Positions 8,433-56,636 of a stretch of 64,000 bases of DNA are shown in pieces (position 1 is the first letter of the stretch; every line of letters begins with the position of its first letter). Origin of the DNA: Guptibacillus hwajinpoensis (GTDB lineage Bacteria > Bacillota > Bacilli > Bacillales > Guptibacillaceae); assembly GCF_020171785.1 (NCBI RefSeq), contig NZ_JAIVAE010000016.1:1-64000 (forward strand), read 5' to 3'. The notes under the pieces are model-generated. The model was given only the letters and a program-made list of their open reading frames with translations, ran no database searches and was not told the DNA's origin. The translations under genes and the position numbers were made by a program.

Positions 8433-9799
8433 AATCCCTCTACTCGAAGTTCATCGTAACAACATTGGTCATCATGCTGGTCAGTTCCGTTATTGGCTTT
8501 TTATTTGCGAATGCATACTACCAAAACAGTTTAAAACCAGAGAACGATGCGAAAAACATGGAGATCGCGACAAGCATAGCGGAGTTCGCTGAAGATCAGT
8601 CTGATCTAGACGAGTACCTCAGCCATACGGCGGCAACAGGCTATCAGCTTTTTTTAGTTAGTCAAGAGGAACGCCGTTATTACGGAGGGGCATTTAAAGA
8701 AAAAAACGTCTCCCAACAAGCCATCGAAGCTGTCTTAGATGGAGAGCCCTATCATGGCATGGAGGCATTCCCGAAAAAAACATTTGTGACCGGGTTCTTC
8801 GCCAACGAGCTTAAAAATTCAGTCGGTGTGCCGTTAACTTATGATGGTAAGCAGTATGCCCTCTTTTTGCGACCCGATATTAAACTCTTATTTAACGAAA
8901 TTCACCTTCTTCTAGGGTGGATGGTGTTGGTGATTTTTATCTTAAGCTTACTTGCCGAACTCATTTGGTCTGCGATGCTGATTCGGCCAATTCGAAAGCT
9001 CTCTCATGCCACGAATAAAGTACGAGAAGAAAGCTTTGATGTTCACTTAGACATTCACCGAAGAGATGAGATTGGCCAACTGGCGCAGAACTTTAAAGAA
9101 ATGATCGCAAGACTTGGAAAATTGGATACGCTTCGTAAATCCTTTGTCTCAAACGTCTCACATGATATTCAGACGCCTTTACTCACAATCCAGGGGTACA
9201 GTCGGTTATTAGAAAACAATGCCCTTTCTGAAGAAGACAGAAAAGCCTACTTGCGTGTCATTCAAGAGGAATCAGAACGGATGTCCATTCTATCCAAACA
9301 GCTGTTAACCCTCTCCTCTCTTGAATCAAAAGAGAAAGATTACGTGAGGAATTCCTTCGATTTATCCGCTCAACTAAAAAGCCTTTTGCATCGCTATTAT
9401 TGGCTAATGGATGAAAAGAACCTTTCCTTAACGTATTCTGTCGATGAGGTTACCTATGAAGGAAATTCAGAGCTGTTATACACCGTCTGGGAAAACCTTC
9501 TAACAAACGCGATCAAATACAACGAGCCAGGAGGGTCAATCGAGGTGACATTAGAAAAGGGTGCTGATGCTACTCACATTGCTTTCACTGACACAGGCAT
9601 TGGCTTAGCATCAAATGAAAAAGATCAAATCTTCGATCGCTTCTATCGCGCCGACCTCGCCCGTACGAGAACAAATCAGGGTACTGGGCTCGGCTTATCC
9701 ATTGTGAAAGAAATCATTGAACTTCATCATGGAGACATAATTGTCGACAGTCAATTAGGAAAAGGAACAACCTTTACCGTCACCCTTCCTCATTTGTAA
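8429..9799 (+). CDS. hssS: Haem-sensing histidine kinase HssS
   Basis: A 456-residue sensor kinase: transmembrane helix at 9-29, extracytoplasmic domain to about 160, second helix 161-183, HAMP to about 230, HisKA with H245 (SNVSHDIQTP) and an ATPase domain with DTGIGL and GTGLGLS. The sensor segment GMEAFPKKTFVTGFF and the nearby FLRPDI match HssS of Staphylococcus, which detects membrane haem stress. It is coupled to hssR by a 4-base overlap. Identification rests on sensor-domain similarity plus the hrtBA genes downstream. Confidence 0.88.
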   Translation: MKSLYSKFIVTTLVIMLVSSVIGFLFANAYYQNSLKPENDAKNMEIATSIAEFAEDQSDLDEYLSHTAATGYQLFLVSQEERRYYGGAFKEKNVSQQAIEAVLDGEPYHGMEAFPKKTFVTGFFANELKNSVGVPLTYDGKQYALFLRPDIKLLFNEIHLLLGWMVLVIFILSLLAELIWSAMLIRPIRKLSHATNKVREESFDVHLDIHRRDEIGQLAQNFKEMIARLGKLDTLRKSFVSNVSHDIQTPLLTIQGYSRLLENNALSEEDRKAYLRVIQEESERMSILSKQLLTLSSLESKEKDYVRNSFDLSAQLKSLLHRYYWLMDEKNLSLTYSVDEVTYEGNSELLYTVWENLLTNAIKYNEPGGSIEVTLEKGADATHIAFTDTGIGLASNEKDQIFDRFYRADLARTRTNQGTGLGLSIVKEIIELHHGDIIVDSQLGKGTTFTVTLPHL

Positions 9800-9887: not shown

Positions 9888-10915
9888 ATGAAAATGGCTT
9901 TGAAAGAAATGAAGAAGAATAAATCAAGATATCTCATCGTTGGCTCCATCGTACTACTCATTAGCCTGGTCACGTTTATCATTTCAGGTTTAGCCAATGG
10001 ATTATCTCAGGATAACGTCTCATTAATCAAAAACATGCCCGATGGCACATTTTACATGAGTGAGGATGCTAATGAATCGTTCACCCAGTCCCATATTGAT
10101 GCGGGTAAACAGGACCAAATCCTTAACAATGATCGTGAAGCTTTTGCATTCTCCATTCAAATGGGTTCACTTAAAAACGAAGCAGACAACCAGCAAAGCG
10201 TGCCTTTCTTACTTCTACCGATACACCGTTACTGAAACAAGTAAACGAAGGGGAAGTAATGCTCGATTCAAGCTTAAAAGCGGAAGGTATCAAGGTTGGT
10301 GATGAACTATCCAGCCCTCTCTTTGAAGGAACGTTTAAGGTAATTGATTTTGTTGATAACAAAACGTTCAACCATTCACCTGTTGCATTGATCAGTCAGG
10401 AAACATTTGAAGAGATGTTTCGAACGGATGAATGGCAGCTGCTCTATCTTCCAGATACAACGGAAACCATCAGCAGCCTGCAATCCTTTTCTAAAAAAGA
10501 ATTTCTCTCTACCATCCCAAGTTACCAGGCAGAGCAAATGACGCTGAATATGATTGTTTGGTTTCTCGTTGTGATTAGCGGCATGCTGTTTGCGATTTTC
10601 TTTTATATGATGAATGTCCAGAAAATTGGGATGTATGGCATCCTCAAAGCTCTTGGCATTCGGACAAGTGATTTGTTCAAGATGATGTGGAGTCAGATGG
10701 CTATGATTACGATCATCGCTCTATTGATTTCTACAGCGATTAGTCAAGTATTTCAATACGTCGCCCCTGATAGCATGCCTTACCATTTAACACTGACAAC
10801 CACCCTGCAGCTTTCCCTTGTCTTTGCAGTGGTTGGATTCATCGGCTCGACGCTATCAGGCTTTCAAATAAAAAAAATCGACCCATTGCAGGCGATTCAG
10901 CAAGGGGAGGCTTAA
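9888..10915 (+). pseudogene. hrtB: hrtB, haem efflux permease, frameshifted
   Basis: Two frames make up one FtsX/MacB-type permease. Frame one encodes the N-terminal helix and extracytoplasmic start (MALKEMKKNKSRYLIVG). Near 10200-10203 the reading must shift to continue with AFLTSTDTPLLKQVNEGEV and the rest, including three C-terminal helices. A single missing base after AGCGT explains the break. The rejoined product would be about 342 residues, close to HrtB (about 351). No slippery heptamer is visible, so programmed frameshifting is unlikely; a true mutation or a sequencing error remains. If real, haem efflux is lost although hssRS and hrtA are intact. Confidence 0.85.
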
Positions 10916-28289: not shown

Positions 28290-29966
28290 ATGGATCTCGA
28301 CCTATTTTTACACCAGCTTCATTTTCAAAATGAACGTGTGACACCAGCGAACTGGGAAGTGAATTGGGACGATGCTCCTCATCCGTATAAGCTGTACCGT
28401 CATCTGCAGGAGTTCCGTCTTCCTGATGAAATACCACTAGTCATAAAAGATCGGCCTAACCTGAATAAAATCGCCCATTTTCTCTGGTATACGTATGGGC
28501 TGACTCAGTTTAACCAAACCGCTTTTTCTTCTTCCACAGGGGAAGAAGTAGCTGAAACAATGCAAGGATTCCGCCGCTTCCCTCCTTCGGGTGGCGGCTT
28601 ATATCCAAGCGAACTTTATGTATATCTGAAACTAGAAGACTTACTACACGGAATCTACCACTACGACGTCGTTCACCATCGCCTTCTTCTGCTTCGAAAG
28701 GGGAATTTTGATTCCTACTTAACACGCGCACTTGGCAACAGCTCTTCCCTTTCCAAGTGTTTTGGGGCGGTCATCATCACGACAATGTTTTGGAAAAACT
28801 TCTTTAAGTACCACAACTTTTCGTATCGTCTTCAAGGATTGGATGCTGGTGCGCTGATCGGGCAGCTATTAGAGGTGAGTAAACGCTGTTGTTTTCATCC
28901 TAAGGTTCATTTTCAGTTTCTCGATCATGCTGTTAATCATCTACTCGGGCTAGACGGTAAGGAGGAAAGCACTTATGCCGTTATTCCTCTTTCAGAGCAA
29001 AAGATCCCACATGAGAAGACTCTAGGTAAATGCACTACAACTGCATTGAGTCAAACCATTCCGGAGATCAAAACGACCCATGTGCAACGTTCGCAAAACG
29101 TATTGCCTTTTTCTGAAATCGCACAGCTTCATCAGGAGACGCTACTTGAAGCTACGGAGTTCTTTCGGCAATTAGAAGCGAGACAAGAAAAAATAGATTA
29201 CAAGGTTCACATCGCTTTGCCAGCAGTACAGAAGAAACTATCCCAAAACTTCACCCACGCTTGCCTAAATCGCTATTCTCCTGAAATGGATTTTCGTGCA
29301 CAGCGAGTAAATCAGGTTCAGCTTGCTTCACTGCTTAAGGAAAGCATGGACTCCTATGGATACGATAACGATCTGAATAACGAAGAAAACCAGAAATCGA
29401 GGGTCTCCATTTATGGCTGCTTTTATCAGATTGACGGCATTCCAAATGGAGCCTATCTCTATGACGCCGCTTCTCATTCTCTCCTACTTATTCAAGAAGG
29501 TGACTTTCGTTTTCGCCTCCAGGCTGGGATGTCCCTTCACAATGTTAATCTGCATCAAGTTCCAGTTTGTCTTCATATCGTCGGGGACCGTACACATCAT
29601 AAAGGCGAACTTGGCTACAGAGGGTATCGCATTCAACACATGGAAGCGGGTATGCTGCTTCAGCGAATCTTGTTAACCGCGAGCGCACTTGGCATGAACG
29701 GCCATCCCCTGCTTGGATTTGATATCAATGGGGTGGATGAGATATATGATCTGGAAGGTTCACAGAAGACGACGATTATCCAAGTGCCTGTTGGGTTTCA
29801 TTGGGCTAAGAGCTGGTTGGTTGGGGGGATTGGCTGGGGATCGCTGGGGATCGCTGGGAATAGCTGGGGGGATCGCTGGGACGGTTCTGCTGATTCTCCT
29901 GAGAATCATGGCACAAGTTGTGGTCTACACAAAGGGTGCATCATGAACGGTAACCCCATTGAATAA
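28290..29966 (+). CDS. SagB-type FMN dehydrogenase (two nitroreductase-like domains)
   Basis: A 558-residue protein with GAGGAGG before the ATG. Two related halves: 60-240 (RRFPPSGGGLYPSELYVYL, LQGLDAGALIGQLL) and about 330-510 (YRGYRIQHMEAGMLLQRIL, ALGMNGHPLLGFD), as in SagB/ThcOx oxidases, which use FMN to oxidise thiazolines to thiazoles. It is the last gene of the maturation operon. The natural protein seems to end near KSWLVGGIG; the last about 47 residues (from WGSLGIAGNSWGDRWD on) are encoded by tandem GATCGCTGGG units and repeat R2 and look like an acquired tail. Core activity should be kept. Confidence 0.85.
   Translation: MDLDLFLHQLHFQNERVTPANWEVNWDDAPHPYKLYRHLQEFRLPDEIPLVIKDRPNLNKIAHFLWYTYGLTQFNQTAFSSSTGEEVAETMQGFRRFPPSGGGLYPSELYVYLKLEDLLHGIYHYDVVHHRLLLLRKGNFDSYLTRALGNSSSLSKCFGAVIITTMFWKNFFKYHNFSYRLQGLDAGALIGQLLEVSKRCCFHPKVHFQFLDHAVNHLLGLDGKEESTYAVIPLSEQKIPHEKTLGKCTTTALSQTIPEIKTTHVQRSQNVLPFSEIAQLHQETLLEATEFFRQLEARQEKIDYKVHIALPAVQKKLSQNFTHACLNRYSPEMDFRAQRVNQVQLASLLKESMDSYGYDNDLNNEENQKSRVSIYGCFYQIDGIPNGAYLYDAASHSLLLIQEGDFRFRLQAGMSLHNVNLHQVPVCLHIVGDRTHHKGELGYRGYRIQHMEAGMLLQRILLTASALGMNGHPLLGFDINGVDEIYDLEGSQKTTIIQVPVGFHWAKSWLVGGIGWGSLGIAGNSWGDRWDGSADSPENHGTSCGLHKGCIMNGNPIE
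29832..29895 (+). repeat. Repeat R2 with tandem GATCGCTGGG units in sagB 3' end
   Basis: Four imperfect 10-12-base units (GGATCGCTGG type) lead into GGGACGGTTCT (29878-29888) and GCTGATT. The block is translated in frame as the C-terminal tail of the SagB-type protein. Confidence 0.75.
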
Positions 29967-30201
29967 GATTTATCAAATCACTAGAGCGAGTTGCACTTTT
30001 CCGCTGACTTCTCGAGATTTCAAATATTCCTTACTATTGGATTTTATTGTTTCCATCATGAAGAGTATGAAAATATAAAAGAAACTTTAGCAGTCCATAC
30101 AGGCTGGCCAGATTTTGAACGATTATTTTATCGATGAAAGCTTTTCCGTATTTCCTAAAGAGGGTAACTATATTAAGTCAATGCAAAATACCCCCTTCAC
30201 G
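29967..30201 (+). other. Intergenic stretch with a short decayed coding trace
   Basis: No intact gene. A plus-strand frame around 30050-30140 reads FHHEEYENIKETLAVHTGWP then ends at a TGA. It has protein-like composition but no start and no family that I recognise; probably a gene remnant. Confidence 0.35.
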
Positions 30202-30241
30202 AAAAGGAGTGCTAATCGACTGAACCATTAGCACTCCTTTT
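30202..30241. terminator. Bidirectional terminator
   Basis: A perfect 15-bp stem (AAAAGGAGTGCTAAT with ATTAGCACTCCTTTT) between the sagB-type gene and the convergent GNAT gene. Confidence 0.85.
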
Positions 30242-30276
30242 ACTTTTCTTAATATTCTGCACCATAGAAAACGCCC

Positions 30277-30732
30277 CTATAACTCCAACCTCATAAACAC
30301 ACTATTCGGATCTTTCCTATACCCCGCAAACGGCTGACACTCTTGAAATCCGAAGCTTTCATACAAACGCCTGGCCGGCTGAAAGACCTCCATTGAACCC
30401 GTTTCCAGACTCAACCGCTCGTATCCACGCGCTTTCGCTTCATCAATAATGTGTTGAAGAAGTCTTTTCGCGACACCCTTTCTTAAATGAGCAGAAGCTG
30501 TTTTCATGGACTTAATCTCAGCATGCACAATGTTTAATTCCTGAAGAGCTACACATCCAACTAAGTCACCCGCTTCCCAAGCACTCCAAAATGTAATCTC
30601 ACGCTTTCGCAATCCGTCTAGATCCAGCGCATGCTTACTTTCCGGTGGAGAATGTTTTTGCATACTTACGATATGATCCCTCAATAATTCAGCCACTTCT
30701 GGTCCTTTTAAATCATCTACTTTAATCTGCAA
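30277..30732 (-). CDS. GNAT family N-acetyltransferase (YsnE-like)
   Basis: A 151-residue GNAT protein. The TTG at 30732 fits AAGGAG 8 bases upstream better than the overlapping GTG. Acetyl-CoA loop HLRKGVAKRLLQHIIDEA and the C-terminal FQPARRLYESFGFQECQPF are close to the YsnE/PA4866-like group. Substrate unknown. Confidence 0.8.
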   Translation of the reverse strand: MQIKVDDLKGPEVAELLRDHIVSMQKHSPPESKHALDLDGLRKREITFWSAWEAGDLVGCVALQELNIVHAEIKSMKTASAHLRKGVAKRLLQHIIDEAKARGYERLSLETGSMEVFQPARRLYESFGFQECQPFAGYRKDPNSVFMRLEL

Positions 30733-30820
30733 TGAACTCACTCCTTTATCGGTACATTGCTCGCTTTTTCATGATAATCAAAACAAATCACTCGATCGTA
30801 ATATCATATTCGGAATCAAA

Positions 30821-30948
30821 GGGACGGTTCTGCTAATTTAGCGAGCGTTAGATAAAGAGTTAGTGCTCACAAACATACCCTGCCTTTCTTTAGGCAGGGC
30901 TTTTCTCATTTATATTTTTGAACTACTCTGCATCGCGAGAACCGTCCC
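30821..30948. repeat. R2 pair flanking a terminator hairpin
   Basis: GGGACGGTTCT (30821-30831) and its inverse AGAACCGTCCC (30938-30948) enclose a strong hairpin (CCCTGCCT with AGGCAGGG, 30878-30899). The same plan, R2 then hairpin then inverted R2, recurs at 45823-45929. Confidence 0.75.
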
Positions 30949-31031
30949 AGCGAAACAAAACACCAGCGAAACACCAGCGAAACAGCGAGAACCGTCCCAG
31001 CGAAACACTAGCGGAAACACCACCAAAACAC
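30938..31031 (-). repeat. 11-bp tandem repeats with two inverted R2 cores
   Basis: AGAACCGTCCC occurs at 30938 and 30988, exactly 50 bp apart, interleaved with units of the form AGCGAAACACC or close variants. The block ends next to the stop codon of the DegT-type aminotransferase gene. Confidence 0.75.
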
Positions 31032-40944: not shown

Positions 40945-41040
40945 AGAATCGCAGGAAGAATCGCAGGGACGGTTCTACTGATTCGACATACAAAAAACAG
41001 AAGTGTTATGAGACGAATCGTCGGGACGGTTCTGTTGATT
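40945..41040 (+). repeat. Two R2 copies with tandem flanks
   Basis: AAGAATCGCAGG occurs twice in tandem and runs into GGGACGGTTCT (40966-40976) and CTGATTC. A second copy, AATCGTCGGGACGGTTCTG at 41015-41033, follows with TTGATT. In each, AATC and GATT flank the core as an inverted repeat. Confidence 0.75.
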
Positions 41041-41179: not shown

Positions 41180-42763
41180 CTACTGATTCACTAGAACCGT
41201 CCGAGACCAGTGAAAAACTAACGTTTTTTTCTTAGACTTAATAGCTAACCCTAAATAAAGAGTATAATAGAAGCTTTTCAACCAAATATACATGAAAAAA
41301 GAGGACGCCGCAGCGATCCTCTTTATGTTTACCGCGACGGCGGCTAATTTTGATTGAATGGATGCACTTAATAGACCATACCCCCTGGTTCGAGATAGGC
41401 CATGAAATCGTTTGAGCTCCGCATTCTTTCCTTCTATAGAAGCTCGCTTTTTATATTTTTCTTTAAACGCTTCGGACTTTTGGTGTTGAGATATTTCATA
41501 AAATTCAGCTGTGTTAACCCCTACCACCAGTAATCTCCTTGCCCTTTTCTTTGCACATTCGTCATGAAGTGGGCAGGCTTTACATTGCTTCAATCCAAAG
41601 TAATATTTATATCCTTCTCTGCCACCATCTTTCCCTTTTGTCCTAAAGTATTTCTTTTTTTCGGTGATGTTTCCTTGGCTACACTGCCATTCATCAGCGT
41701 CTTTATTATAGGTGAATTGACTTTCGTCAAGTCGGTATACAAGAGAGCTTACGGGTATATAAGGGTGCGCTTTTAAGGATTTTATATCATCTAGTATAGA
41801 TTTTCTGAAACAAGCTTTATCCCCATACACTTCCGTGATGGTCATGTTTGATCTTAAAGTTTGAGCTAACATTTCTTTGGCATAACTACCATCTGTGTAA
41901 GCACCATCCGATGTGCGTACGGACGTAATTATCCGTTCTTTTGTTGTCATCACAAACTCAGTTTTGTATCCATAAAAGTCCTGCGTCCTACTTTTTCTGC
42001 CGACTCTCGCATCTTCGTCAATAAGGGATCGAATGCCTTTCTGGTTGATAAACTTGGGATCCGCTAGGATCTTCTGAGCTTTTTGTATTGATTCCTTCGT
42101 GTTTTGATTGTGATTTGATGCTTGTTTCTCTACTTGATTCATTACGTTCAATAAGTAATCTTTCATCACAGCCTTCGCTTCTCGGTGATCCGCAATCTCC
42201 TGATAATCTGGAACCTCTGGTAAGTTTTCAAGTGATTGCCCCGTTTCTCGTTCATAGGTATGAATGATATTCCGAGCCAGATGTTTCATCAATCGCTCAG
42301 GTGTTTTCTTCTTAGTATTCGCTTCGATATGGGTAGCGTCAATACTGACACTTTTTCCTTGGAGAATCCCTTGTTCTACACATTGTCTCGCCATTTCAGT
42401 CATCATTTCATCAAGAGTATTTTCTCCAAGTCGCTGCGTTCGAAACTTGGACAGAAGACTTTTGTCTGGCAGGGAATCTTCTGGATTGAGACCGAGAAAG
42501 TACATAAACGCGAGGTTCAGTTCAGCTTCTGCCTTCATTTGTTCATCGGAATAATTATATAAATGTTGTAAAAATAAAAGTTTACACATTAACTCTGGTT
42601 CTTTGGCAGGACGGCCAAAACGCTCGGAGTAACTGTCTTTCAAAAGATCGTTAATGAAAGAAAAATCAATAACGGTCGTTATCTTCTTAAGGATATGATT
42701 TTCCGGAATTTTATCGTATAATACAGAGTGAAAACTTGATTGCTTTGACTGTAATCGAAGCAC
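41180..42763 (-). CDS. IS1182 family transposase (DDE)
   Basis: A 527-residue transposase with the family N-terminus (DFSFINDLLKDSYSERFGRP), the DUF772-like helical part, DDE catalytic region (SVSIDATHIEANTK, VYGDKACFRK, and RASIEGKNAELKRFHGLSR with the glutamate) and a Cys-rich block (CKACPLHDEC). The frame is uninterrupted and seems intact. It reads through the left inverted repeat, so its last residues are VFHWSRTVLVNQ and the stop lies outside the IS. No binding site better than weak upstream. Confidence 0.92.
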   Translation of the reverse strand: MLRLQSKQSSFHSVLYDKIPENHILKKITTVIDFSFINDLLKDSYSERFGRPAKEPELMCKLLFLQHLYNYSDEQMKAEAELNLAFMYFLGLNPEDSLPDKSLLSKFRTQRLGENTLDEMMTEMARQCVEQGILQGKSVSIDATHIEANTKKKTPERLMKHLARNIIHTYERETGQSLENLPEVPDYQEIADHREAKAVMKDYLLNVMNQVEKQASNHNQNTKESIQKAQKILADPKFINQKGIRSLIDEDARVGRKSRTQDFYGYKTEFVMTTKERIITSVRTSDGAYTDGSYAKEMLAQTLRSNMTITEVYGDKACFRKSILDDIKSLKAHPYIPVSSLVYRLDESQFTYNKDADEWQCSQGNITEKKKYFRTKGKDGGREGYKYYFGLKQCKACPLHDECAKKRARRLLVVGVNTAEFYEISQHQKSEAFKEKYKKRASIEGKNAELKRFHGLSRTRGYGLLSASIQSKLAAVAVNIKRIAAASSFFMYIWLKSFYYTLYLGLAIKSKKKTLVFHWSRTVLVNQ

Positions 42764-42901
42764 AAGTAAAACCCCCTAATGGTCGGTATTTGGTCGTACC
42801 CATTATACCATTCAGGGGGTTTTTTCATGGAGAATTTTAAATTTTACTCACCGCTCTGGTCTTAATCCGACTTTTTCACTGGTCTCGGACGGTTCTAGTG
42901 A
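41188..42901 (-). mobile_element. IS1182-family insertion sequence
   Basis: 1714 bp bounded by a perfect 30-bp inverted repeat (41188-41217 and 42872-42901), outer end TCACTAGAACCGTCC, inner end GAGACCAGTGAAAAA. It contains one transposase gene. The inverted repeat itself contains the R2 core (GAACCGTCC). No clear target duplication is visible: ACTGAT on the left and TTTCAG on the right. Alternatively the true ends are the inner 15 bases and the element lies between two R2 copies. Confidence 0.85.
42768..42823. terminator. Hairpin inside the IS upstream of the transposase
   Basis: AAAACCCCCTAATGGT pairs with ACCATTCAGGGGGTTTT. Placed between the IS end and the transposase start, it can stop incoming transcription, a known protective device in insertion sequences. 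Confidence 0.7.
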
Positions 42902-42951
42902 TTTCAGACCATACAAAAAGGAGCGTTAATCAATTTAATAATTGACGCTCC
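42887..42951 (+). repeat. R2 core followed by GGAGCGTTAAT-type hairpin
   Basis: GGACGGTTCT (42887-42896, within the IS right end) is followed 24 bases later by a hairpin (GGAGCGTTAAT with ATTGACGCTCC) whose arms resemble the GGGAGCATTAATTA hairpins of the toxin-locus R2 elements. Confidence 0.6.
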
Positions 42952-43012
42952 TTTACAATATTTCTCAAAATCATCGATGCTCTTATAGCAGGTTGTGCAA
43001 TGCTTTCGAAAA

Positions 43013-43549
43013 CTACTGAATTGGTCCCATCAATTCAGTAATAACTAGAATGTGCTCCTTCAATTTAACTTTTTTTAGATTCTCTACTTTTTCTGATCCA
43101 CCTAATCCTAGTAGAGGTGTATAACCAAAGCACTCGTCATACTCTGGTTTTTTATCTTTTTCTATCGCTTCTGGATAGGGTAGCCACATTAATTCATCCG
43201 TCATAAAATCATTTTCTTTTAAGTCCTCAAAAAAAAATTCAAATCCGGATGAAACTACATGAACATACCCTTTCCTATAAATTAATAAATTTATATACTT
43301 ATCTTTTTCCCATACAATAATATCCCCTATTGAGGTTGTGAAAATAGGAATCGCCTGCTCATATCTTGAATAACTTTTCTCTAAAATATCTAGATAGTCT
43401 TCTGGATTAATTACTTTTAAAAAACCATTTACAAGAGTACCAAAACCATATTTTCCCCATATTTCTATACTTTAAAATAATATCTTTATTGACTGTTTCA
43501 TTTTTTATGAAATCGCTAAATACCTTGTCCAAATAGGATGCCTCATTTA
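43013..43549 (-). pseudogene. Broken GAD-like/DUF1851 immunity protein gene
   Basis: The main frame encodes IWGKYGFGTLVNGFLKVINP, then DIIVWEKDKYINLLIYRKG, then PEYDECFGYTPLLGLGG and KLKEHILVITELMGPIQ, the pattern of GAD-like plus DUF1851 (Tdi1-type) immunity proteins. A TAA at 43472-43474 interrupts it; the homologous upstream part (YLDKVFSDFIKNETVNKD) continues in another frame, so a frameshift lies near 43465-43475. No start codon remains. It is probably the leftover of a further toxin-immunity pair removed when the IS or repeats rearranged the locus. Confidence 0.7.
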
Positions 43550-43656
43550 ATTACTCTGTTAATTTTGAGCGAGGGGATGGACAGGTACCTAGTCTCAATA
43601 ATAAGTTAGTATGCATTTTCTTCTGTTGATACTTACAATGGGACTGCAAAAGTAGT

Positions 43657-43691
43657 AATAGAGCCACTATCATTTTGATAGTGGCTCTATT
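43657..43691. terminator. Strong hairpin terminator
   Basis: AATAGAGCCACTATC pairs perfectly with GATAGTGGCTCTATT around 5 bases, between repeats next to the toxin locus. Confidence 0.8.
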
Positions 43692-43720
43692 ATGGCATAA
43701 GCGGAGCATTTTGTTTTAAG

Positions 43721-43800
43721 TGGAGCGAAAAGATAACATAGGTCGGTTTATTCCTCCTATGTCTTCTCTTTAGTAGGACGAGTACCTTTCCCACGGCTCT
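43721..43800 (+). repeat. Repeat R3, copy 1
   Basis: TGGAGCGAAAAGATAACATA, then GGTTTATTCCT, then CTCTTTAGTAGGACGAG and TACCTTTCCCACGGCTC. Related copies lie at 48061-48140 and 48324-48400. Their right ends form a palindrome of the type GGGACGAGGTACCTGTCCC. Confidence 0.7.
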
Positions 43801-43817
43801 TTTTCGCGAATGAGTTA

Positions 43818-44291
43818 TTAATTTCTTTTTTTATATTCTTCAATTATCTTATAATCACGTTGACGATTTTTTGGGGGCATCATGCCTAATTTTTCATATT
43901 CCCAAATGACTTGTTGCTCATAGCTATCTTCATTTTCTAAATTTTCGTAGTTATAGTCAATTTCAAATTTTCCGTTTGATGTTAATTCAAGTGTTAAATT
44001 GGTCCATTGTTCTTGTTTTTGATTTTTAAATTCATTCCATAACTCTCTTAGATATTCATATAATTGATGTAACTTTTGATTAACTTCATCTTCACTAACT
44101 TCATCCATATCTTCAATATCTAAACTATAAGTAGGCATTTCATTATTGTGGGGATAGTAGTAAAAATAGGTTCGATTACTCCACTCTGTAACTTCAGAAT
44201 ATAATAACACTTTATCCCAAGTTTCAGGAATAATTAAATTTAACTGTTGTCCTATTTTTTGATAGAGTTCTTCCATATTCTCTTTATTCAT
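43818..44291 (-). CDS. YezG/DUF600-family immunity protein
   Basis: A 157-residue acidic protein of the DUF600 family: the N-terminal helix MEELYQKIGQQLNLIIPETW, and the C-terminal YEKLGMMPPKNRQRDYKIIE tail are diagnostic of YezG, the antitoxin of the LXG DNase YeeF. Its ATG directly follows the stop of the nuclease-tipped toxin cassette, so the pair forms a toxin-immunity module. Confidence 0.88.
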   Translation of the reverse strand: MNKENMEELYQKIGQQLNLIIPETWDKVLLYSEVTEWSNRTYFYYYPHNNEMPTYSLDIEDMDEVSEDEVNQKLHQLYEYLRELWNEFKNQKQEQWTNLTLELTSNGKFEIDYNYENLENEDSYEQQVIWEYEKLGMMPPKNRQRDYKIIEEYKKRN

Positions 44292-45809
44292 TTATTTCCC
44301 TCCATAACTATTTTCCAAGACTTCTAAATACTTTTTACCATCAATTTTATACTTTATTTCAAACTTAATTGGTCGAAAAGACTGCGCTTCATATATTGGT
44401 TTTATGTCTACCGATACTTGTTGACCTTCTTTCAAAGCTTTTGCCCAAGAATATTCAAGTTTTTTAAAGGAACTTACATTTACATTTCCATTCATTGCAA
44501 CGATGTTATCAATTAATGGAGATCCATTAAATTGCGTACCGATTAAATGTCCACCATGATCTCCTTGAGTACTAGGAGCTTTAATTCGGTCTACCCCCCC
44601 AGCAGCTAACTGATGTTTTGTATCACGAACACCCATTTCCAACTTTAGTACTCCTGAAGCTTTCTTAATTCTCCCCAAATCGTCTGTTTGATAATGATAT
44701 CCATTCGTTTCATATTTAACGTTAGGTTTTAATTTAAATTCATTTAAAAAATGACTACCTAATGCATACCCACTATTAACTCTTTTACTATTCTTACCCT
44801 TCCCACCATAAACCCGATCAATCTCAGTCTTAATCCGCGAAACCGGATCATTCAACACATTATAAGGTGCGCCACCTTTAGAAGACGCCCCAGCACTGAC
44901 TCCTGCTAATGCGGGCTGAAAACCATTTCCTTCAATCTTAACACGCTTCGCTGCATCACTGACTTTATCAATCGTCTTCGCGGCTGTTCCAACTTTACTG
45001 AGACCTTTATCTCCTAACAATCCTATACCGATAGTGGTCAGCCCATAGGTGAAAAATTCTGTTCGACTGGACGCATCTCCGTATACGACATCTCGATCCC
45101 AGGCTTTTTTAACACCCTGCCACATGTATTTCGGCACATCGACTACTTTTTGAAAACTGCCTTTTGGATCTTCATAAACGCTTTTAGATAAGCTTATCAG
45201 TTTAGGCACATCTTTCGTTACGCTATACACAGGATTTAAACGACGGATTGTTTCAAGGCACCCTTCATGAAAAATCCCTTCAAATGTATCCTTTACTGCA
45301 TTCCCACTTCCATCCAGCACACCTTCTACAACATCACCCATAAAATCCCACGTTGTATTACTTACTTCATCAACCTTCTGTTGCGTCTCTCCCCACCAGC
45401 GATCCACATAGTTTGAGTACCTGACCACACTATGCGACACATCTCGGCGCACCTTGTCTAGATAAGCCGTCGTTTTCGATAAAGGATCAAGCACGACACT
45501 TTCATACGTCTGCTTCATCCTACTCTGGATGACCTGTGGGTTCAGGGCATATTGCAGGTCTGGAAACAACTCTCCAAATGCACCACTGTATGAAGGCGTC
45601 AGTGAATTTTTCCCAAAAAGACGTTCACTCCAGCTTAATGCTTCTCCAGTAACGGGATCATAATCCTGGAACAACCTGTTTAAACCACTAAACTTTAATG
45701 CCATAAGGCCAAACTTTGCCGAAAGCGAGTGATCTTCTTCCGTCATTTTTCTCTCGGTTAGTTTCACTGCCGCCTGCAGGTCATGGAACTTGTCCCGGTA
45801 TTTGCGCAT
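44292..45809 (-). CDS. Orphan toxin cassette 1, non-specific endonuclease tip
   Basis: 505 codons from an ATG (MRKYRDKFHDLQ) equal to residue 62 of the complete toxin at 49021-50688; the T7SS-targeting first 61 residues are missing. The shared middle region runs to the boundary motif DRVYGGKG. After it a distinct tip (YETNGYHYQTDDLGRIKKAS; DRIKAPSTQGDHGGHLIG) matches the DNA/RNA non-specific endonuclease family (Endonuclease_NS_2). No ribosome binding site is seen; upstream the frame runs into repeat R2 (as QQNRPEDYE). Probably silent, a store of an alternative toxin tip, though the paired YezG immunity gene is intact. Confidence 0.82.
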   Translation of the reverse strand: MRKYRDKFHDLQAAVKLTERKMTEEDHSLSAKFGLMALKFSGLNRLFQDYDPVTGEALSWSERLFGKNSLTPSYSGAFGELFPDLQYALNPQVIQSRMKQTYESVVLDPLSKTTAYLDKVRRDVSHSVVRYSNYVDRWWGETQQKVDEVSNTTWDFMGDVVEGVLDGSGNAVKDTFEGIFHEGCLETIRRLNPVYSVTKDVPKLISLSKSVYEDPKGSFQKVVDVPKYMWQGVKKAWDRDVVYGDASSRTEFFTYGLTTIGIGLLGDKGLSKVGTAAKTIDKVSDAAKRVKIEGNGFQPALAGVSAGASSKGGAPYNVLNDPVSRIKTEIDRVYGGKGKNSKRVNSGYALGSHFLNEFKLKPNVKYETNGYHYQTDDLGRIKKASGVLKLEMGVRDTKHQLAAGGVDRIKAPSTQGDHGGHLIGTQFNGSPLIDNIVAMNGNVNVSSFKKLEYSWAKALKEGQQVSVDIKPIYEAQSFRPIKFEIKYKIDGKKYLEVLENSYGGK

Positions 45810-45822
45810 TTCATAATCTTCT

Positions 45823-45929
45823 GGACGGTTCTGTTGAGTCCTTCTCATAAAAAAAGGGAGCATTAATTAACAGAATAATTAATGCTCCCTTTCACTTTAT
45901 TTAGAATTTTTGTATCATGAGAACCGTCC
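45823..45929 (+). repeat. R2 element with hairpin at cassette 1 junction
   Basis: GGACGGTTCT (45823-45832), then a perfect hairpin GGGAGCATTAATTA with TAATTAATGCTCCC (45856-45889), then AGAACCGTCC (45920-45929). It begins 13 bases beyond the ATG at which the toxin homology stops. Confidence 0.85.
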
Positions 45930-45975
45930 TCGCGATGGTGAACACATCATGCAATAAAATATCCCACCTTCTTCT

Positions 45976-46425
45976 TTATAATTCAGTGTCCTCATATAAA
46001 TTATCCAAGAATTCATCAATATCATTTGCTAAAAAATACATATTACTCATATCATCAGGATCTTCTGGTTCTTGTTCATGATCCCAAAAATAAATTTTTT
46101 CATAATATGGCTCTTCAGTACCTAAGCATATAACATTACCTGCTGAATCATCTGCAATTGGAACAAAGCCCTTTGCAAGCCTAAACTCATATATATCTAT
46201 AACCTTCTCTAAATTATCATACATATCTCCAATTCCATTAAATACATTCAAAACACTTTTCCCAAGTTCATCAGAAATATTAAATATACTAGGTTCTGGA
46301 TATCCACCATTCCATTTAAATAAAAATCTCTTATATTTTTCAGTTAATTTCACACCATTTTCTATTTCAAACTGCTCAATCTCTTCCATAGAGAGTCTCT
46401 TATGTGAGTTTTCAATTTTCACCAT
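45976..46425 (-). CDS. SMI1/KNR4 (SUKH) family immunity protein
   Basis: A 149-residue SUKH protein: SMEEIEQFEIENGVKLTEKYKRFL at the N-terminus with the W-N-G-G loop (FKWNGGYPEP), GFVPIADDSAGNVICLG in the middle and an acidic C-terminus. SUKH proteins neutralise nuclease-type polymorphic toxins. It lies 20 bases after the stop of the WHH nuclease cassette and should protect against it. Site GAGGGGGA upstream. Confidence 0.9.
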   Translation of the reverse strand: MVKIENSHKRLSMEEIEQFEIENGVKLTEKYKRFLFKWNGGYPEPSIFNISDELGKSVLNVFNGIGDMYDNLEKVIDIYEFRLAKGFVPIADDSAGNVICLGTEEPYYEKIYFWDHEQEPEDPDDMSNMYFLANDIDEFLDNLYEDTEL

Positions 46426-46445
46426 ATTAAAATCCCCCTCTTAAT

Positions 46446-47939
46446 TTATTTTCCATTAACAATTGATACACCGCCAGCATGAGTAAATTCCCTATGAATA
46501 TCTTTATCCACAAGAATCATTGTTTTTCCATCTTGATGATGATGCCATATATATCCTGCAGGTGGCTTATCTAGTGCTGGTACCGGTGGATTAGAATTTT
46601 TGGTCAAACCTGCTTCTATATTAGCATTTTTATAATCCATTGGACGATTTGTTGGATTTGCAAGCTCAATCTCTACAGGCTTCACAGTTGGATGAGAGTA
46701 TTCAGTAAAATCCGGATAACCATTAGGGTACTTTACAGTCTGACCCTTCTTATTTGTATATACCCAAATTCCGTTATCATCAATTCTTACTGTACCACCT
46801 TTTTTTGTCCATTTATCTGGAGAGGGGGAGTATGAGGGTTTAGTGACAAGTTGTTTTTTTGTAAATTGGACGTCTAAATTACTTTTCACCGTACCCTTCC
46901 CACCATAAACCCGATCAATCTCAGTCTTAATCCGCGAAACCGGATCATTCCACACATTATAAGGTGCGCCACTTTTAGAAACCGAAGCTCCCCCTGCACC
47001 CGCTCCAGCTAACGCTGGTTGAGCACCCTTCCCATCAACCTTAATATTCTTCGCTGCATCCGCAACGTCTTCAATTGTTTTTGCGGTTGTTCCAATTTTG
47101 CCGAGACCTTTATCTCCTATGGCTCCAATTCCTAATGATGTTAGACCGTAAGTAATGAATGCCGTTCGGCTTTCGGCGTCGCCGTTCACAAAGTCTCGAT
47201 TCCAGGCTTCTTTAAACCCTTGCCACATGTATTTCGGTACATCCAACACCTTCTGGACATTACCTTTTGGATCACCAAAGATGTTCTTATAGAAGTTTAT
47301 CGTTTCTAAGCTTTTAAATAGTAACTCAGGGAGATCTTCTTCATCGCGATACACAGCAAGGTTTGGTCCAAATGCTTTTTCACCTAATGCGTTAAGATCC
47401 TTAAATCCCTCAATCATATCTTCCACTGCATTCCCGCTTCCAACCTGGACACCTTTTACCACATCACCTAAAAAGCTCCGCGCCGTGTTCCGCGCTTCAT
47501 CAACCTTCTGCCGCGTCTCTCCCCACCAGCGATCGACATAGCTTGAGTACCTAACTACACTATGCGACACATCCTGGCGAACATCGTCTAGATAAGCCGT
47601 TGTTTTCGATAAAGGATCAAGCACGACACTTTCATACGTCTGTTTCATCCTACTCTGAATCACCTGTGGGTTTAAGGCATATTGCAGGTCTGGAAACAAC
47701 TCTCCAAATGCACGACTGGATGAAGCCGTCAGTGGATTTTTTCCAAAAAGACGTTCGCTCCAGCTTAATGCTTCTCCCGTGACGGGATCATAGTCCTGAA
47801 ACAACCTGTTTAAGCTACTAAATTTTAATGCCATAAGGCCGAACTTCGCCGAAAGCGAGTGATCCTCTTCCGTCATTTTTCTCTCGGTTAATTTTACTGC
47901 CGCCTGCAGGTCATGGAGCTTGTCCCGGTATTTGCGCAT
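46446..47939 (-). CDS. Orphan toxin cassette 2, WHH-type HNH nuclease tip
   Basis: 497 codons from the same MRKYRDKLHDLQ breakpoint as cassette 1, again without the N-terminal secretion domain. The shared region is nearly identical to that of the complete toxin and ends at DRVYGGKG. The tip has IWVYTNKKGQTVKYPNGYPD and the catalytic PAGYIWHHHQDGKTMILVDK followed by HREFTHAGGVS, the WHH family of the HNH/Endonuclease VII superfamily, a DNase fold. Upstream of the ATG the frame reads into R2 as NRTVPII. No ribosome binding site. Likely a silent cassette. Confidence 0.83.
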   Translation of the reverse strand: MRKYRDKLHDLQAAVKLTERKMTEEDHSLSAKFGLMALKFSSLNRLFQDYDPVTGEALSWSERLFGKNPLTASSSRAFGELFPDLQYALNPQVIQSRMKQTYESVVLDPLSKTTAYLDDVRQDVSHSVVRYSSYVDRWWGETRQKVDEARNTARSFLGDVVKGVQVGSGNAVEDMIEGFKDLNALGEKAFGPNLAVYRDEEDLPELLFKSLETINFYKNIFGDPKGNVQKVLDVPKYMWQGFKEAWNRDFVNGDAESRTAFITYGLTSLGIGAIGDKGLGKIGTTAKTIEDVADAAKNIKVDGKGAQPALAGAGAGGASVSKSGAPYNVWNDPVSRIKTEIDRVYGGKGTVKSNLDVQFTKKQLVTKPSYSPSPDKWTKKGGTVRIDDNGIWVYTNKKGQTVKYPNGYPDFTEYSHPTVKPVEIELANPTNRPMDYKNANIEAGLTKNSNPPVPALDKPPAGYIWHHHQDGKTMILVDKDIHREFTHAGGVSIVNGK

Positions 47940-47946
47940 AATTATC

Positions 47947-48135
47947 GGGACGGTTCTGTTAAGTTCATCCCATAAAAAAAGAAGCATTAATTAGTGGAAT
48001 AATTAATGCTCCCTTTCACTTTATTTAGAATTTTGTATCATGAGAAACGTATCCTCGATGATAGAGATAAAAAGACCATATAGGGCAGTTTATTCACCTT
48101 ACCTCTCTCTTTAGTGGGACGAGGTACCTGTCCCC
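47947..48135 (+). repeat. Composite R2-hairpin-R3 element, copy A
   Basis: GGGACGGTTCT (47947-47957), hairpin GAAGCATTAATTA with TAATTAATGCT, degenerate inverted R2 (GAGAAACGTATCC), then R3 with the palindrome GGGACGAGGTACCTGTCCC (48117-48135). About 190 bp in all; 79% or more of positions match copy B at 48208-48400 by eye. Confidence 0.8.
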
Positions 48136-48206
48136 ATGGCTCTCCAATTTCACTGCCGCCTGCAGGTCATGAAGCTTGTCCCGGTATTTGCGCATTTCAT
48201 AATCGT
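48136..48206 (-). pseudogene. 65-bp stump of a third toxin cassette
   Basis: The stretch encoding MRKYRDKLHDLQAAV on the minus strand is repeated here, from the same ATG breakpoint to about 20 codons in, where R3 begins. So a third cassette was lost except for its first codons, or the repeats carried this fragment with them. Confidence 0.8.
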
Positions 48207-48207
48207 C

Positions 48208-48400
48208 GGGACGGTTCTGTTGTCTCCATTGCATAAAGAAAGGGAGCATTAATTAGTGGAATAATTAATGCTCCCTTTCACTTTATTTAGAATTTTTGTA
48301 TCATGAGAAACGTACACGCGATGGTGGAGCGAAAAGATAACATAGGGCGGTTTATCCCCTCTATTTCTGTCTTTCTTTAGTGGAACGAGGTACCTATCCG
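48208..48400 (+). repeat. Composite R2-hairpin-R3 element, copy B
   Basis: GGGACGGTTCT (48208-48218), hairpin GGGAGCATTAATTA with TAATTAATGCTCCC, GAGAAACGTACAC, then R3 starting TGGAGCGAAAAGATAACATA and ending GGAACGAGGTACCTATCC. Contains a spurious 71-codon frame. Confidence 0.8.
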
Positions 48401-48498
48401 CATAACCTTTAATATTCTCATAATTAATTTCCTTTGGAACCGCCTTTGTGATGTATACAAGCATTTTATATTGCCAAAAGCCTTAATTTCACTCAAAA

Positions 48499-48532
48499 AA
48501 GCACTTGTTGCCTAATATGCAATCAAGTGCTT
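48499..48532 (-). terminator. Terminator of the complete toxin operon
   Basis: AAGCACTTG pairs with CAAGTGCTT; on the minus strand it is followed by TTTTTT. It lies 50 bases after the SUKH immunity gene. Confidence 0.85.
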
Positions 48533-48580
48533 ACAGTTAATTTTCTTTAGTTTATCTTATTGCAATTTATATCTTGGATT

Positions 48581-49024
48581 TTAAAAATGTATATTTAATT
48601 CTTCACGTATTGCTTTCTCTAAGTACTCCTCAAAACTCTCTGCTATAATTTTATTCCCACCAAAATTCAAGTCAAATGTAATAATCTCTGTATTCGGGAA
48701 ATTAAATCCTACGGGATTCCCTGCACCGTCAATACCAATAGCAGTAAAATTTTCATACCCTTTAGGAAGTACTTTTCTAAAATGTAAAGATTTCTCTACA
48801 AATGATGGTGTTGCAACAAACTCTGCCTCTTTCAATCCCAAAATAATAGCCTCACCAGCTGCTCCAGAACCATATCTCAAAAGAAATTCTTTAAAATCCT
48901 CTGGCAATTTTACTTTTAGTTCATCTTCTGCTTGGTTTACTTCCTCAATATTAAGAGGTCCCCCAAAGGCTTCTGGGCACATTTCGACTTCTTCATCGAT
49001 AGCATTTAATATTTCTATCTTCAT
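48581..49024 (-). CDS. SMI1/KNR4 (SUKH) immunity protein of the complete toxin
   Basis: A 147-residue SUKH protein: NIEEVNQAEDELKVKLPEDFKEFLLRYGSG, a central GLKEAEFV, GYENFTAIGIDGAGNPVGFNF and the FEEYLEKAI end. Its ATG overlaps the toxin stop by 4 bases, so the two are translated together. It should bind and block the LHH-type nuclease tip. Confidence 0.92.
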   Translation of the reverse strand: MKIEILNAIDEEVEMCPEAFGGPLNIEEVNQAEDELKVKLPEDFKEFLLRYGSGAAGEAIILGLKEAEFVATPSFVEKSLHFRKVLPKGYENFTAIGIDGAGNPVGFNFPNTEIITFDLNFGGNKIIAESFEEYLEKAIREELNIHF

Positions 49025-50688
49025 TCAATGATCCCCCTTTTAATCATTTCATTGGCGTATCTTGCCTTCCAATATTCTTTACGCCAAGTATTAAATTCAA
49101 TCCTAGCTTCTCCACTGCCAACTCCACCTGAATTTCCAAATGGATGTTGTCTCTTATTACCTAAATCATGGTATCTATTAGGCATCTCAATCATTGGTCC
49201 CTCAATTTGTTGTTCATGATGATGAAGTATAATTGTATCATTTGCTCCATCCTTTGGTGAGTAACCTTTTTTAAATAAGTATATCAATTGTTTATCAGAC
49301 ATATGTGATAAGGAACGCTGTGCTTTTACTTCAAATCCCCTAAATTGTGCTGTGAATTTATGAGTTTGCTCGTATCCTACTAGCGCTTGGTTAACACTTT
49401 TAGGTGAAACTTTATAAATATCTTTTGCTGACTTTAATTTATCCGAACCATTAGTAACCTTACTACCCTTCCCACCATAAACCCGATCAATCTCAGTCTT
49501 GATCCGCGAAACCGGATCATTCCACACATTATAAGGAGCGCCACCTTTAGAAATTGCCCCAGCACCCGCCCCTGCTAACGCCGGTTGAGCACCCTTCCCT
49601 TCAACCTTAACATTCTTCGCGGCATCCGCAACATCCTCAATCGTTTTTGCGGTTGTTCCGATTTTGCCGAGACCTTTATCTCCTATGGCTCCAATTCCTA
49701 ATGATGTTAGACCGTAAGTAATGAATGCCGTTCGACTTTTGGCGTCGCCGTTCAAAAAGTCTCGATCCCAGGCTTCCTTAAACCCTTGCCACATGTATTT
49801 TGGTACATCCAACACCTTCTGGACATTGCCTTTTGGATCATCAAAAATGTTCTTATAGAAGTTTATCGTTTCTAAGCTTTTAAATAGTAATTCAGGGAGA
49901 TCTTCCTCATCGCGATACACAGCAAAGTTCGGTCCAAATGCTTTTTCAGCTAATGCGTTAAGCTCCTTAAACCCATCAATCGCATCCTCTACTGCATTCC
50001 CGCTTCCAACCTGCACACCCTTTACCACATCACCTAAAAAGCTCCGTGCCGTATTCCGCGCTTCATCAACCTTCTGCCGCGTCTCTCCCCACCAGCGATC
50101 CACATAGCTTGAGTACCTCACCACACTATGCGACACATCCCGGCGCACCTCGTCTAGATAAGCCGTTGTTTTTGATAAAGGGTCGAGCACGACACTTTCA
50201 TACGTTTGCTTCATCCTACTCTGAATCACCTGTGGGTTTAAGGCATATTGCAGATCTGGAAACACTTCTCCAAATGCACCACCGTATGAAGCATTCAGTG
50301 GATTTTTTCCCAAAAGCCGTTCACTCCAGCTTAATGCTTCTCCAGTAACGGGATCATAGTCTTGAAACAACCTGTTTAAGCCACTAAATTTTAATGCCAT
50401 AAGGCCGAACTTCGCAGAAAGCGAGCGATCCTCTTCCGTCATTTTTCTCTCGGTTAGTTTCACTGCCGCCTGTAGGTCATGGAGCTTGTCCCGGTATTTG
50501 CGCATTTCATATTGCAACTCCGCTTGAAGAGCATCAATCTTACCGGTGTTCGCGCCCGTGATGTTCATTAGAAGAGATTGATAGTTCCATTTAAAATCGC
50601 TAATCGCTTCATCTGCTTTTCGCTCGGCATCCTGGATGCCGCTTGCCAGCTGATTTAATTGTTCTGGTTTAATTGCTATTCTCGTCAC
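49021..50688 (-). CDS. T7SS-type polymorphic toxin with LHH nuclease tip
   Basis: A 555-residue protein from a GTG start with GGAGGG 6 bases upstream, overlapping the helper gene by 4 bases. Residues 1-90 are helical and WXG100/LXG-like (MTRIAIKPEQLNQLASGIQD), expected to guide secretion by a type VII system. Residues 62-415 form the long conserved middle region shared with both orphan cassettes, ending at DRVYGGKG. The tip (IILHHHEQQIEGPMIEMP, then PFGNSGG) is the LHH family of HNH/Endonuclease VII nucleases, a probable DNase acting on competitor cells. No T7SS core genes are in the window. Confidence 0.87.
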   Translation of the reverse strand: MTRIAIKPEQLNQLASGIQDAERKADEAISDFKWNYQSLLMNITGANTGKIDALQAELQYEMRKYRDKLHDLQAAVKLTERKMTEEDRSLSAKFGLMALKFSGLNRLFQDYDPVTGEALSWSERLLGKNPLNASYGGAFGEVFPDLQYALNPQVIQSRMKQTYESVVLDPLSKTTAYLDEVRRDVSHSVVRYSSYVDRWWGETRQKVDEARNTARSFLGDVVKGVQVGSGNAVEDAIDGFKELNALAEKAFGPNFAVYRDEEDLPELLFKSLETINFYKNIFDDPKGNVQKVLDVPKYMWQGFKEAWDRDFLNGDAKSRTAFITYGLTSLGIGAIGDKGLGKIGTTAKTIEDVADAAKNVKVEGKGAQPALAGAGAGAISKGGAPYNVWNDPVSRIKTEIDRVYGGKGSKVTNGSDKLKSAKDIYKVSPKSVNQALVGYEQTHKFTAQFRGFEVKAQRSLSHMSDKQLIYLFKKGYSPKDGANDTIILHHHEQQIEGPMIEMPNRYHDLGNKRQHPFGNSGGVGSGEARIEFNTWRKEYWKARYANEMIKRGIIE

Positions 50689-51035
50689 TTCAAGCCCTCC
50701 GCTTTCTGAAGAAGTCGGTCGATTTCTTCGTTAATCGCAGAGGTCAGTTCCTCATGAACCGCATACACACTCTGAGAGGCTTGTTCGAGTTCTCCGATAA
50801 GCGATTCATAAGCTTCACGTGCCTCTCCAACCCAATTCGACGAGTAAGTCGAATGATGGTGATCAAAGACTCGTTTACTATCATCGATATCAAATCTAGC
50901 TTCCCTTACCTTTCCTAGATACGCTTCCAATGCCTCGGCTTCTGCCCGATACTTCATACGCTCTAAATAACGTTTAAATTCTTCTAGTTCGTTTAACACC
51001 GCAACCTCCTTTTCGACCAAACCTCGTTTCACCAC
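50685..51035 (-). CDS. T7SS toxin partner (DUF5082/YwqH-like helical protein)
   Basis: A 116-residue, almost wholly helical protein with heptad-like charge patterning and a central SNWVGEAREAYESL, a W-x-G-like turn (NWVG) as in WXG100 relatives. It is the first gene of the toxin operon and is coupled to the toxin by a 4-base overlap. In LXG systems such small helical proteins bind the toxin N-terminus and are needed for its export. The exact DUF is from gene order and size. Confidence 0.75.
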   Translation of the reverse strand: MVKRGLVEKEVAVLNELEEFKRYLERMKYRAEAEALEAYLGKVREARFDIDDSKRVFDHHHSTYSSNWVGEAREAYESLIGELEQASQSVYAVHEELTSAINEEIDRLLQKAEGLK

Positions 51036-56519: not shown

Positions 56520-56538
56520 CTTTTGGCCCCAAAATAAA

Positions 56539-56610
56539 GGAGCATCAATTATACTAATAATTAATGCTCCTCTACCTTTTTTCGAACTATCGCATCATAA
56601 GAACCGTCCC
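56539..56610. repeat. Half R2 element with hairpin
   Basis: Hairpin GGAGCATCAATTA with TAATTAATGCTCC (56539-56570) followed by AGAACCGTCCC (56600-56610). This is the right half of the element seen at 45823-45929, and it can end both flanking convergent genes. Confidence 0.75.
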
Positions 56611-56636
56611 TACGAAGCGTATATTTTTCTAGACTC

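Follow-up and report, generated by a model that had tools for sequence, protein, structure and literature searches.

The toxin array described here is probably the product of Rhs-like tip displacement at a polymorphic-toxin locus of the type VIIb secretion system (T7SSb), where orphan gene copies capped by a hairpin and a repetitive extragenic palindromic (REP) sequence form a reservoir of toxin tips and immunity genes. It is located in a window of 64,000 nucleotides from Guptibacillus hwajinpoensis, which belongs to contig C16 in a genome of 4.24 Mb (G000). Whole modules of tip and immunity gene would pass between lineages, and older or incoming modules would stay downstream as orphans. The toxin of the window locus is referred to as family 1, its complete gene (49021-50688) as the resident gene, and its two long orphan copies as c1 and c2. 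A second toxin family (family 2) is represented in complete form by L026:6344-8236, which has a WHH tip and a partner resembling DUF5344 (below cut-off). Truncated copies of both families were compared within the genus group, which comprised 14 genomes (G-numbers); L-numbers denote individual DNA stretches taken from genomes for comparison. Named relatives with the backbone shared by the toxin copies are Pseudalkalibacillus hwajinpoensis SaN0-1 and Bacillus sp. RAR_GA_16. The features of the array are as follows.

50685-51035, reverse strand: WXG100/YwqH-like partner protein of 116 amino acids (WXG100 26.0 bits, cut-off 27.3; YwqH-like 22.8 bits, cut-off 33.7; both below cut-off)
49021-50688, reverse strand: complete toxin of 555 amino acids, with N-part (1-61), shared middle (62-408) and LHH tip (409-555; LHH 39.9 bits)
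48581-49024, reverse strand: SUKH immunity gene of the LHH tip (SMI1_KNR4, 58 bits)
48202-48403, reverse strand: leader 1, a second REP type and then a hairpin with the REP end AGAACCGTCCCGACGATT (hairpin z -6.57)
48148-48201, reverse strand: stump of a lost toxin copy, 54 bp (96.3% identical to 50511-50458)
47945-48137, reverse strand: leader 2 (82.6% over 259 columns to leader 1 plus stump; hairpin z -4.08)
46446-47939, reverse strand: orphan c2, shared middle and WHH tip (profile matches, alignment to the complete gene)
45976-46425, reverse strand: SUKH immunity gene of c2 (SUKH_6, 75.8 bits)
45816-45940, reverse strand: leader 3 (91.1% over 179 columns to leader 1 plus stump; hairpin z -7.01)
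44292-45815, reverse strand: orphan c1, shared middle (type B) and Endonuclea_NS_2 tip (profile matches, alignments, MaxChi)
43818-44291, reverse strand: YezG-like immunity gene of c1 (142.9 bits)
43720-43791, reverse strand: partial leader, second REP type (83% to leader 1)
43013-43204, reverse strand: remnant of a Tdi1/DUF1851-type immunity gene, the frame being broken upstream of the remnant (T6SS_Tdi1_C, 79.5 bits)
42887-42957, reverse strand: hairpin and AGAACCGTCC ending the array, a weaker copy of the leader's hairpin part (hairpin z -4.42)
41180-42763, reverse strand: IS1182-family transposase bounding the array (NF033551, 371.9 bits, cut-off 270)

An earlier note, made from the sequence alone, had described three toxin genes with LHH, WHH and Endonuclea_NS_2 domains next to SUKH, SUKH and YezG immunity genes, all of which was borne out by profile matches. 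The common internal start that it ascribed to the copies was also found. Homology to the complete gene begins at codon 60 (TATGAAATGCGC) in the stump and c1 (position 50511 in the complete gene, 48201 in the stump, 45815 in c1) and at codon 62 (ATGCGC) in c2 (50505 and 47939, respectively). The comparison indicates that every orphan in the window begins at one fixed join, from a hairpin with a REP end to an internal toxin codon. Homology ends directly after DRVYGGKG in both long copies (49464 in the complete gene, 46892 in c2, 44795 in c1), so that the divergence claimed for all copies at this motif holds for c2 and c1, while the homology of the stump measures only 54 bp and not the 65 bp given before. 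Likewise, 'near-identical' proved an overstatement for the roughly 1.1 kb in common: alignment of the three genes gave identities to the complete gene of 92.6% over 1048 bp for the middle of c2 and 79.5% over 1056 bp for that of c1, of which the second half belongs to another backbone type. The broken DUF1851 gene is present as an orphan immunity gene of the Tdi1 type; the fourth toxin copy that it had been taken to mark is a deduction from this gene, beside which no toxin fragment was found. The orphans c1 and c2 have no delivery part, share the backbone and carry other tips and immunity genes, as in displaced arrays of the Rhs, contact-dependent inhibition (CDI) and Maf kind.

The exchange of tips is most evident from the comparison with sister species, which carry other tips on the same N-part at the same locus, in line with the tip variation anticipated in the earlier note. 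The N-parts were 92.3-98.4% identical in DNA (183 nt; 15 pairs from six copies in five genomes) while the tips differed, and the partner gene of 116 amino acids was present with the same start and end in G004, G005, G007 and G011. These alignments indicate that the N-part stays constant while tip and immunity gene change as a block. Moreover, orphan tips of the window were found on complete genes in relatives: the NS_2 tip in G004 copy b (85.1% over 504 nt) and the WHH tip in G007 (65.2% over 446 nt). A tip with an ankyrin neighbour is shared, at 74.0%, by G005 and G004 copy a. For family 2, an orphan in G005 was 99.3% identical over 1443 bp to the complete WHH tip of G008 together with its two immunity genes, while the complete backbones of these two genomes were 93.1% identical (about 7% apart); the complete tip of G005 and an orphan tip of G004 were 83.6% identical over 1082 bp. 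The same tip module is thus found, by sequence comparison, in a complete gene in one species and as an orphan in another, which indicates that tips have been exchanged between species. The 99.3% identical module, complete in one species and orphaned in the other, provides a clear comparative case of tip exchange in a type VII secretion system (T7SS) toxin.

The orphan c1 itself is a mosaic of two G004 genes, with breaks at the border of middle and tip and inside the middle. Its middle was 99-100% identical to G004a in columns 400-850, and it was 97-99% identical to G004b in columns 1000-1300, which span the last part of the middle and the beginning of the tip, with a fall to 64% deeper in the tip. 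Eleven MaxChi tests were performed with 2000 permutations each. For c1 a break was placed at nt 1005 of the 1014-nt middle, the middle/tip border (0 of 2000 permutations), and another within the middle at nt 343 (2 of 2000); six other tests (three for G005, two for c2, one for G004b) gave 0 of 2000. Directly before the tip, the two toxin families, which differ otherwise, resemble each other at 74-78% over ~90 bp (RIKTE..R..GG; window 49454-49554, L026:7593-7679 and 10350-10450), and this likeness is a possible route for tip exchange between families.

The assignment to the T7SS was examined at the level of the proteins and of the genomes. Both the toxin and its partner remained below the cut-offs of WXG100 (22.0 and 26.0 bits, cut-off 27.3) and TIGR03930 (28.2 and 20.7 bits, cut-off 44.85), and no LXG family was among the Pfam matches of the complete toxin at E 0.01. 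A structure model of the toxin with a mean pLDDT (predicted local distance difference test) of 33.2 was not used. EssC, the component searched for, was found in the genome of the window above the cut-off of TIGR03928 (1720.5 bits; G000:C7). Full-length EssC above cut-off was present in 11 of the 14 genomes, including every one with a family-1 or family-2 backbone, and the genomes without full EssC (G001, G006 and G012) carried neither toxin backbone.

What the earlier note did not contain is the leader common to the copies, with its hairpin and a REP motif found genome-wide. The three copy starts (stump, c2 and c1) are each preceded by a leader of ~110 bp, the pairwise identities being 90-91% over 106-108 columns, and each leader consists of a long hairpin, then AGAACCGTCC, then a short tail. 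The hairpins are located directly 5' of each copy and have energies of -20.5 to -28.6 kcal/mol and the fold z-scores listed above; the case for them depends on the computed folds and not on a terminator scan. Genome-wide there are 19 exact copies of GGGACGGTTCT and 0 of its reversed control, and 2 of the 19 are inside the array. With up to two mismatches, AGAACCGTCCCGACGATTC was found in 12 of the 14 genus genomes against 0 for controls. The motif behaves as a REP, namely as a short dispersed repeat that is often paired around hairpins; REP families are the subject of PMC3733652, as far as its available part goes. A gene for a REP-associated tyrosine transposase (RAYT) is located at G000:C5:66994-67770 (PF01797 49.8 bits, cut-off 23; NF047646 71.7 bits, below the cut-off of 80). 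The REP motif starts 10 nt past the last matched RAYT base in five of the six genomes with a full-length RAYT of at least 80% identity, a count that covers these relatives and in which more distant or partial RAYT-like genes were not checked singly; the exception is G013, where no REP motif follows the RAYT at up to two mismatches. The dispersed motif is very probably the cognate REP of the G000:C5 RAYT.

Two other origins of the leader were considered and rejected. It is not part of an ancestral toxin gene, as its hairpin-REP part matches sites outside toxin genes, and a derivation from IS1182 was rejected by eye, as AGAACCGTCC at the ends of the insertion sequence (IS) is oriented the other way with respect to the outside. 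At the three IS1182 ends examined by eye (41180-42896, L005:9037), AGAACCGTCCGAGACCAGTGAAAAA lies behind a terminator-like hairpin, and the REP core may be part of the IS1182 end or its target. More REP copies, single and paired and several of them behind terminator-like hairpins, are present in the window at 29878-30998, 40966-41033 and 56532-56615. Another toxin-like locus of this genome, with one gene that resembles YezG by eye, was seen in a REP-rich stretch at L006:9189-12351 (G000:C5).

Across the genus, seven distinct joins were counted, and four of these place the start of the fragment 7-12 nt behind the REP core. These are the window join of family 1 (three copies, one join) and the joins at family-2 positions 6530 (G004), 7201 (G005) and 7110 (G010), so that they span four species, two toxin families and four different gene positions. 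Upstream of these REP joins are immunity genes in the window, G004 and G005, and an open frame of unassigned family in G010. It should be noted that the rule was drawn from the joins in the window, G004 and G005, and that the G010 join came from a later search, which also gave three terminator-type starts (two in G011, one of them degenerate, and one in G013). The remaining joins are of three kinds: a terminator T at family-2 position 6505 (G008, G007 twice, G005, G011 and G013), T' joined at 6580 in G005, and, in G004 copy b, whose N-part is retained, a spacer fused to an internal site of the partner gene. The join at 6505 was observed in five species and with two or more types of tip, and T is found mainly at the family-2 toxin locus (12 of 18 among the matches listed, counted by place). 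Excluded from the count were fragments at contig ends (G011 C13, G013 C22), tip-only pieces (e.g. in G009, G011 C18, G013 C22 and G010), rearrangements within the fragment at 8562-9124 in G005, and the immunity gene found truncated in G007 (10337). The idea that codon 62 is a universal programmed boundary was rejected, as other joins lie at other positions. A second mobile-looking repeat of ~200 bp, with GGGACAGG ... TGTCCC ends, was observed in three genomes: in G005 at ends of a truncated toxin stub (L023, reverse strand, about 3475-3729), in G007 where an immunity gene is cut short (L025, about 10157-10337), and in G010 close to a fragment (L050, about 100-275).

In the mechanism that we propose, the orphans would not be expressed with the upstream gene, because a hairpin stands in front of them, and would not be secretable, because they lack the first part of the WXG-like region; protection by their immunity genes may nevertheless persist. 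Tips would be swapped by homologous recombination within the ~1 kb middle, for which two routes are conceivable. A circle consisting of middle, tip, immunity gene and leader could insert in the Campbell manner, which would give the complete gene a new tip and push the old tip downstream behind the circle's own join. Alternatively, tandem copies could undergo unequal exchange, with the first join being copied along. One fixed join in all copies is expected if later homologous exchanges copied the first join. This first join was probably made at a REP, judging from where the joins lie. It could have arisen in two steps, with a REP inserting into a second toxin copy and the DNA between two REPs then being deleted, or by direct REP/RAYT strand joining; we hold the former to be likelier, because it needs only known kinds of steps. 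That REP ends and the RAYT transposase are themselves the agent that makes orphan toxin cassettes is a more speculative and rather doubtful proposal. A REP terminus behind the terminator of an immunity gene would then be joined to an internal toxin site, giving a capped, promoterless and recombination-ready cassette. If true, this would answer the question of the origin of the first cassette or circle, which Jackson 2009 (PMC2935791) leaves open in the part available. In any case, the REP end is a physical mark at recurrent cassette joins, and the start of displaced-tip arrays thus becomes testable.

Several observations weigh against displacement by recombination at REP-marked joins. Neither terminator-like sites (6 versus 5.2 expected) nor promoter-like sites (21 versus 25.0) exceeded the numbers in shuffled sequences. 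Of the 19 exact GGGACGGTTCT copies, 17 lie outside the array, so REPs are not special to toxin loci, and three of the seven distinct joins are not at a REP. Truncation is not obligatory, because the second copy in G004 keeps its N-part. Most of the eight positive MaxChi tests compare unrelated tips and mainly restate the mismatch of tip and backbone; the one within the middle of c1 is the sole positive test on homologous sequence alone, and three tests gave no break within the middle, two of them for the resident gene with different parent pairs and one for c2 (130, 970 and 1059 of 2000). Furthermore, c2 is 93.1% identical to the resident gene and 93.3% to G005, and c1 is 95.6% identical to G004a and 81.5% to the resident gene. 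Both orphans are thus no closer to the resident than to foreign genes, and there is no sign of recent exchange within the genome. Lastly, one genome per species was sampled, which places tip swaps between strains outside the reach of the comparison.

The selection on c2 bears on the age of this orphan. Between the middles of c2 and the resident gene, the synonymous divergence (dS) was 0.24 and the ratio of non-synonymous to synonymous divergence (dN/dS) 0.14, compared to dS 0.23-0.35 and dN/dS 0.12-0.16 for pairs among four other type-A genes (0.23-0.27 for pairs with a type-B middle, i.e. c1 and G004a). Private changes were 9 synonymous and 4 non-synonymous in c2 versus 41 and 20 in the four others together (Fisher p 1.0). 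These estimates reveal no relaxed selection on the c2 backbone and point to constraint for nearly all of its history. Therefore, c2 either became an orphan in recent times, or came from elsewhere, or remains in use, and this constraint weighs against a long-silent archive. In G005, the N-part frame of the family-1 toxin (L023) is broken by a 14-bp tandem duplication in that assembly; intact copies are present in other species. The window gene has an imperfect two-copy form of this repeat, and the stretch may be prone to slippage.

Among the alternatives, the view that the orphans are kept under selection for immunity against rival strains, with the toxin parts as passengers, has the most in its favour and deserves serious consideration, even if we regard it as clearly less probable than tip displacement. 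Indeed, the immunity genes of both orphans have open frames and match their families in full, and immunity genes without a toxin occur elsewhere (the Tdi1-type remnant, a truncated SUKH gene in G007 and a SUKH gene in L038:9618-10061). However, the ~1 kb toxin middles and both tips are open frames as well, the dN/dS of the c2 middle is like that of complete genes, which a pure immunity bank would not need, and each orphan is preceded by a hairpin.

Plain tandem duplication followed by decay, with the orphans as dying, roleless duplicates of the resident gene and the leader as a terminator duplicated along with them, is unlikely. The stump and the broken Tdi1-type gene do show decay, the array ends in IS1182 and REPs, and the recurrent family-2 join at 6505 lies behind a terminator found mainly at that locus. 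Yet neither the orphan tips nor their immunity genes are related to the resident tip, the c2-resident dS is as large as that between species and the dN/dS is not near 1, and orphan tip modules match complete genes elsewhere at up to 99.3%. Still less likely is that the orphans, instead of being silent cassettes, are translated from internal starts into proteins with an intracellular or decoy function: open frames from upstream ATGs extend into the leader and Salmonella Rhs elements have been proposed to work as toxin-antitoxin modules (PMC7043789, in the part available), but a hairpin of -20.5 to -28.6 kcal/mol stands just upstream of each copy and promoter-like sites are not above chance.

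Rhs-like tip displacement, which we prefer, has well-described parallels, all of which are cited here from the available parts of the sources. Rhs tip displacement (Jackson 2009, PMC2935791) likewise involves a constant core, exchangeable tips and downstream displaced fragments of core and tip, together with a circle insertion model and exchange confined to one backbone clade. In contrast, Rhs core remnants are of variable length and, as described, of one sequence within a locus; those of the window have a single join in common and 79.5-92.6% identity to the complete gene, together with hairpin-REP caps and a T7SS route. The orphan LXG toxins of Enterococcus faecalis OG1RF (Chatterjee 2021, PMC7790226) are T7SS toxin fragments downstream of a complete toxin, with >75% DNA homology to part of it and full-length homologues in other strains and in Listeria; the window toxin differs in having no LXG match and a putative WXG-type N-part, and a fixed join or REP leader is unmentioned in the part available. 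The MafB-CT cassettes of Neisseria (Jamet 2015, PMC4287609) consist of tips and immunity genes, some without a start codon, and the same tip can be found on a complete gene in another strain, but MafB is not a T7SS toxin and the part available does not mention REPs at cassette borders. In polymorphic toxin cassettes at large (Zhang 2012, PMC3482391), tip and immunity gene move as a unit, with a median of three cassettes per active toxin; this is a general survey, the available part of which does not mention an analysis of joins. Truncated T7SS Rhs genes in Listeria (PMC10327511) and recombination of T7SS immunity genes (PMC9484751) have also been reported, and two other T7SS papers (PMC8321402, PMC10765036) leave the picture unchanged. 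The earlier note had considered a repeat-delimited set for a T7SS toxin to be less well described. Orphan T7SS modules are in fact known already (PMC7790226), and the new part is the REP-end join; no link of REP ends to orphan toxins was found in the open-licence literature searched, as judged by titles and abstract openings.

Beyond the genus, a search at the level of the order gave matches in 88 of 397 genomes, outside the genus mostly over short parts. Eight stretches from six of the 88 matching genomes were compared with themselves, and open frames were listed for four and fragment starts for five of them; this self-comparison gave no repeat in L045. Tandem toxin arrays were observed in other genera, with headless copies in L038:5005-13652 and L039:5235-8676 (reverse strand) and full-length copies in L040. 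The extra SUKH gene at L038:9618-10061, also from another genus, is by eye very like the LHH immunity gene of the window (48581-49024).

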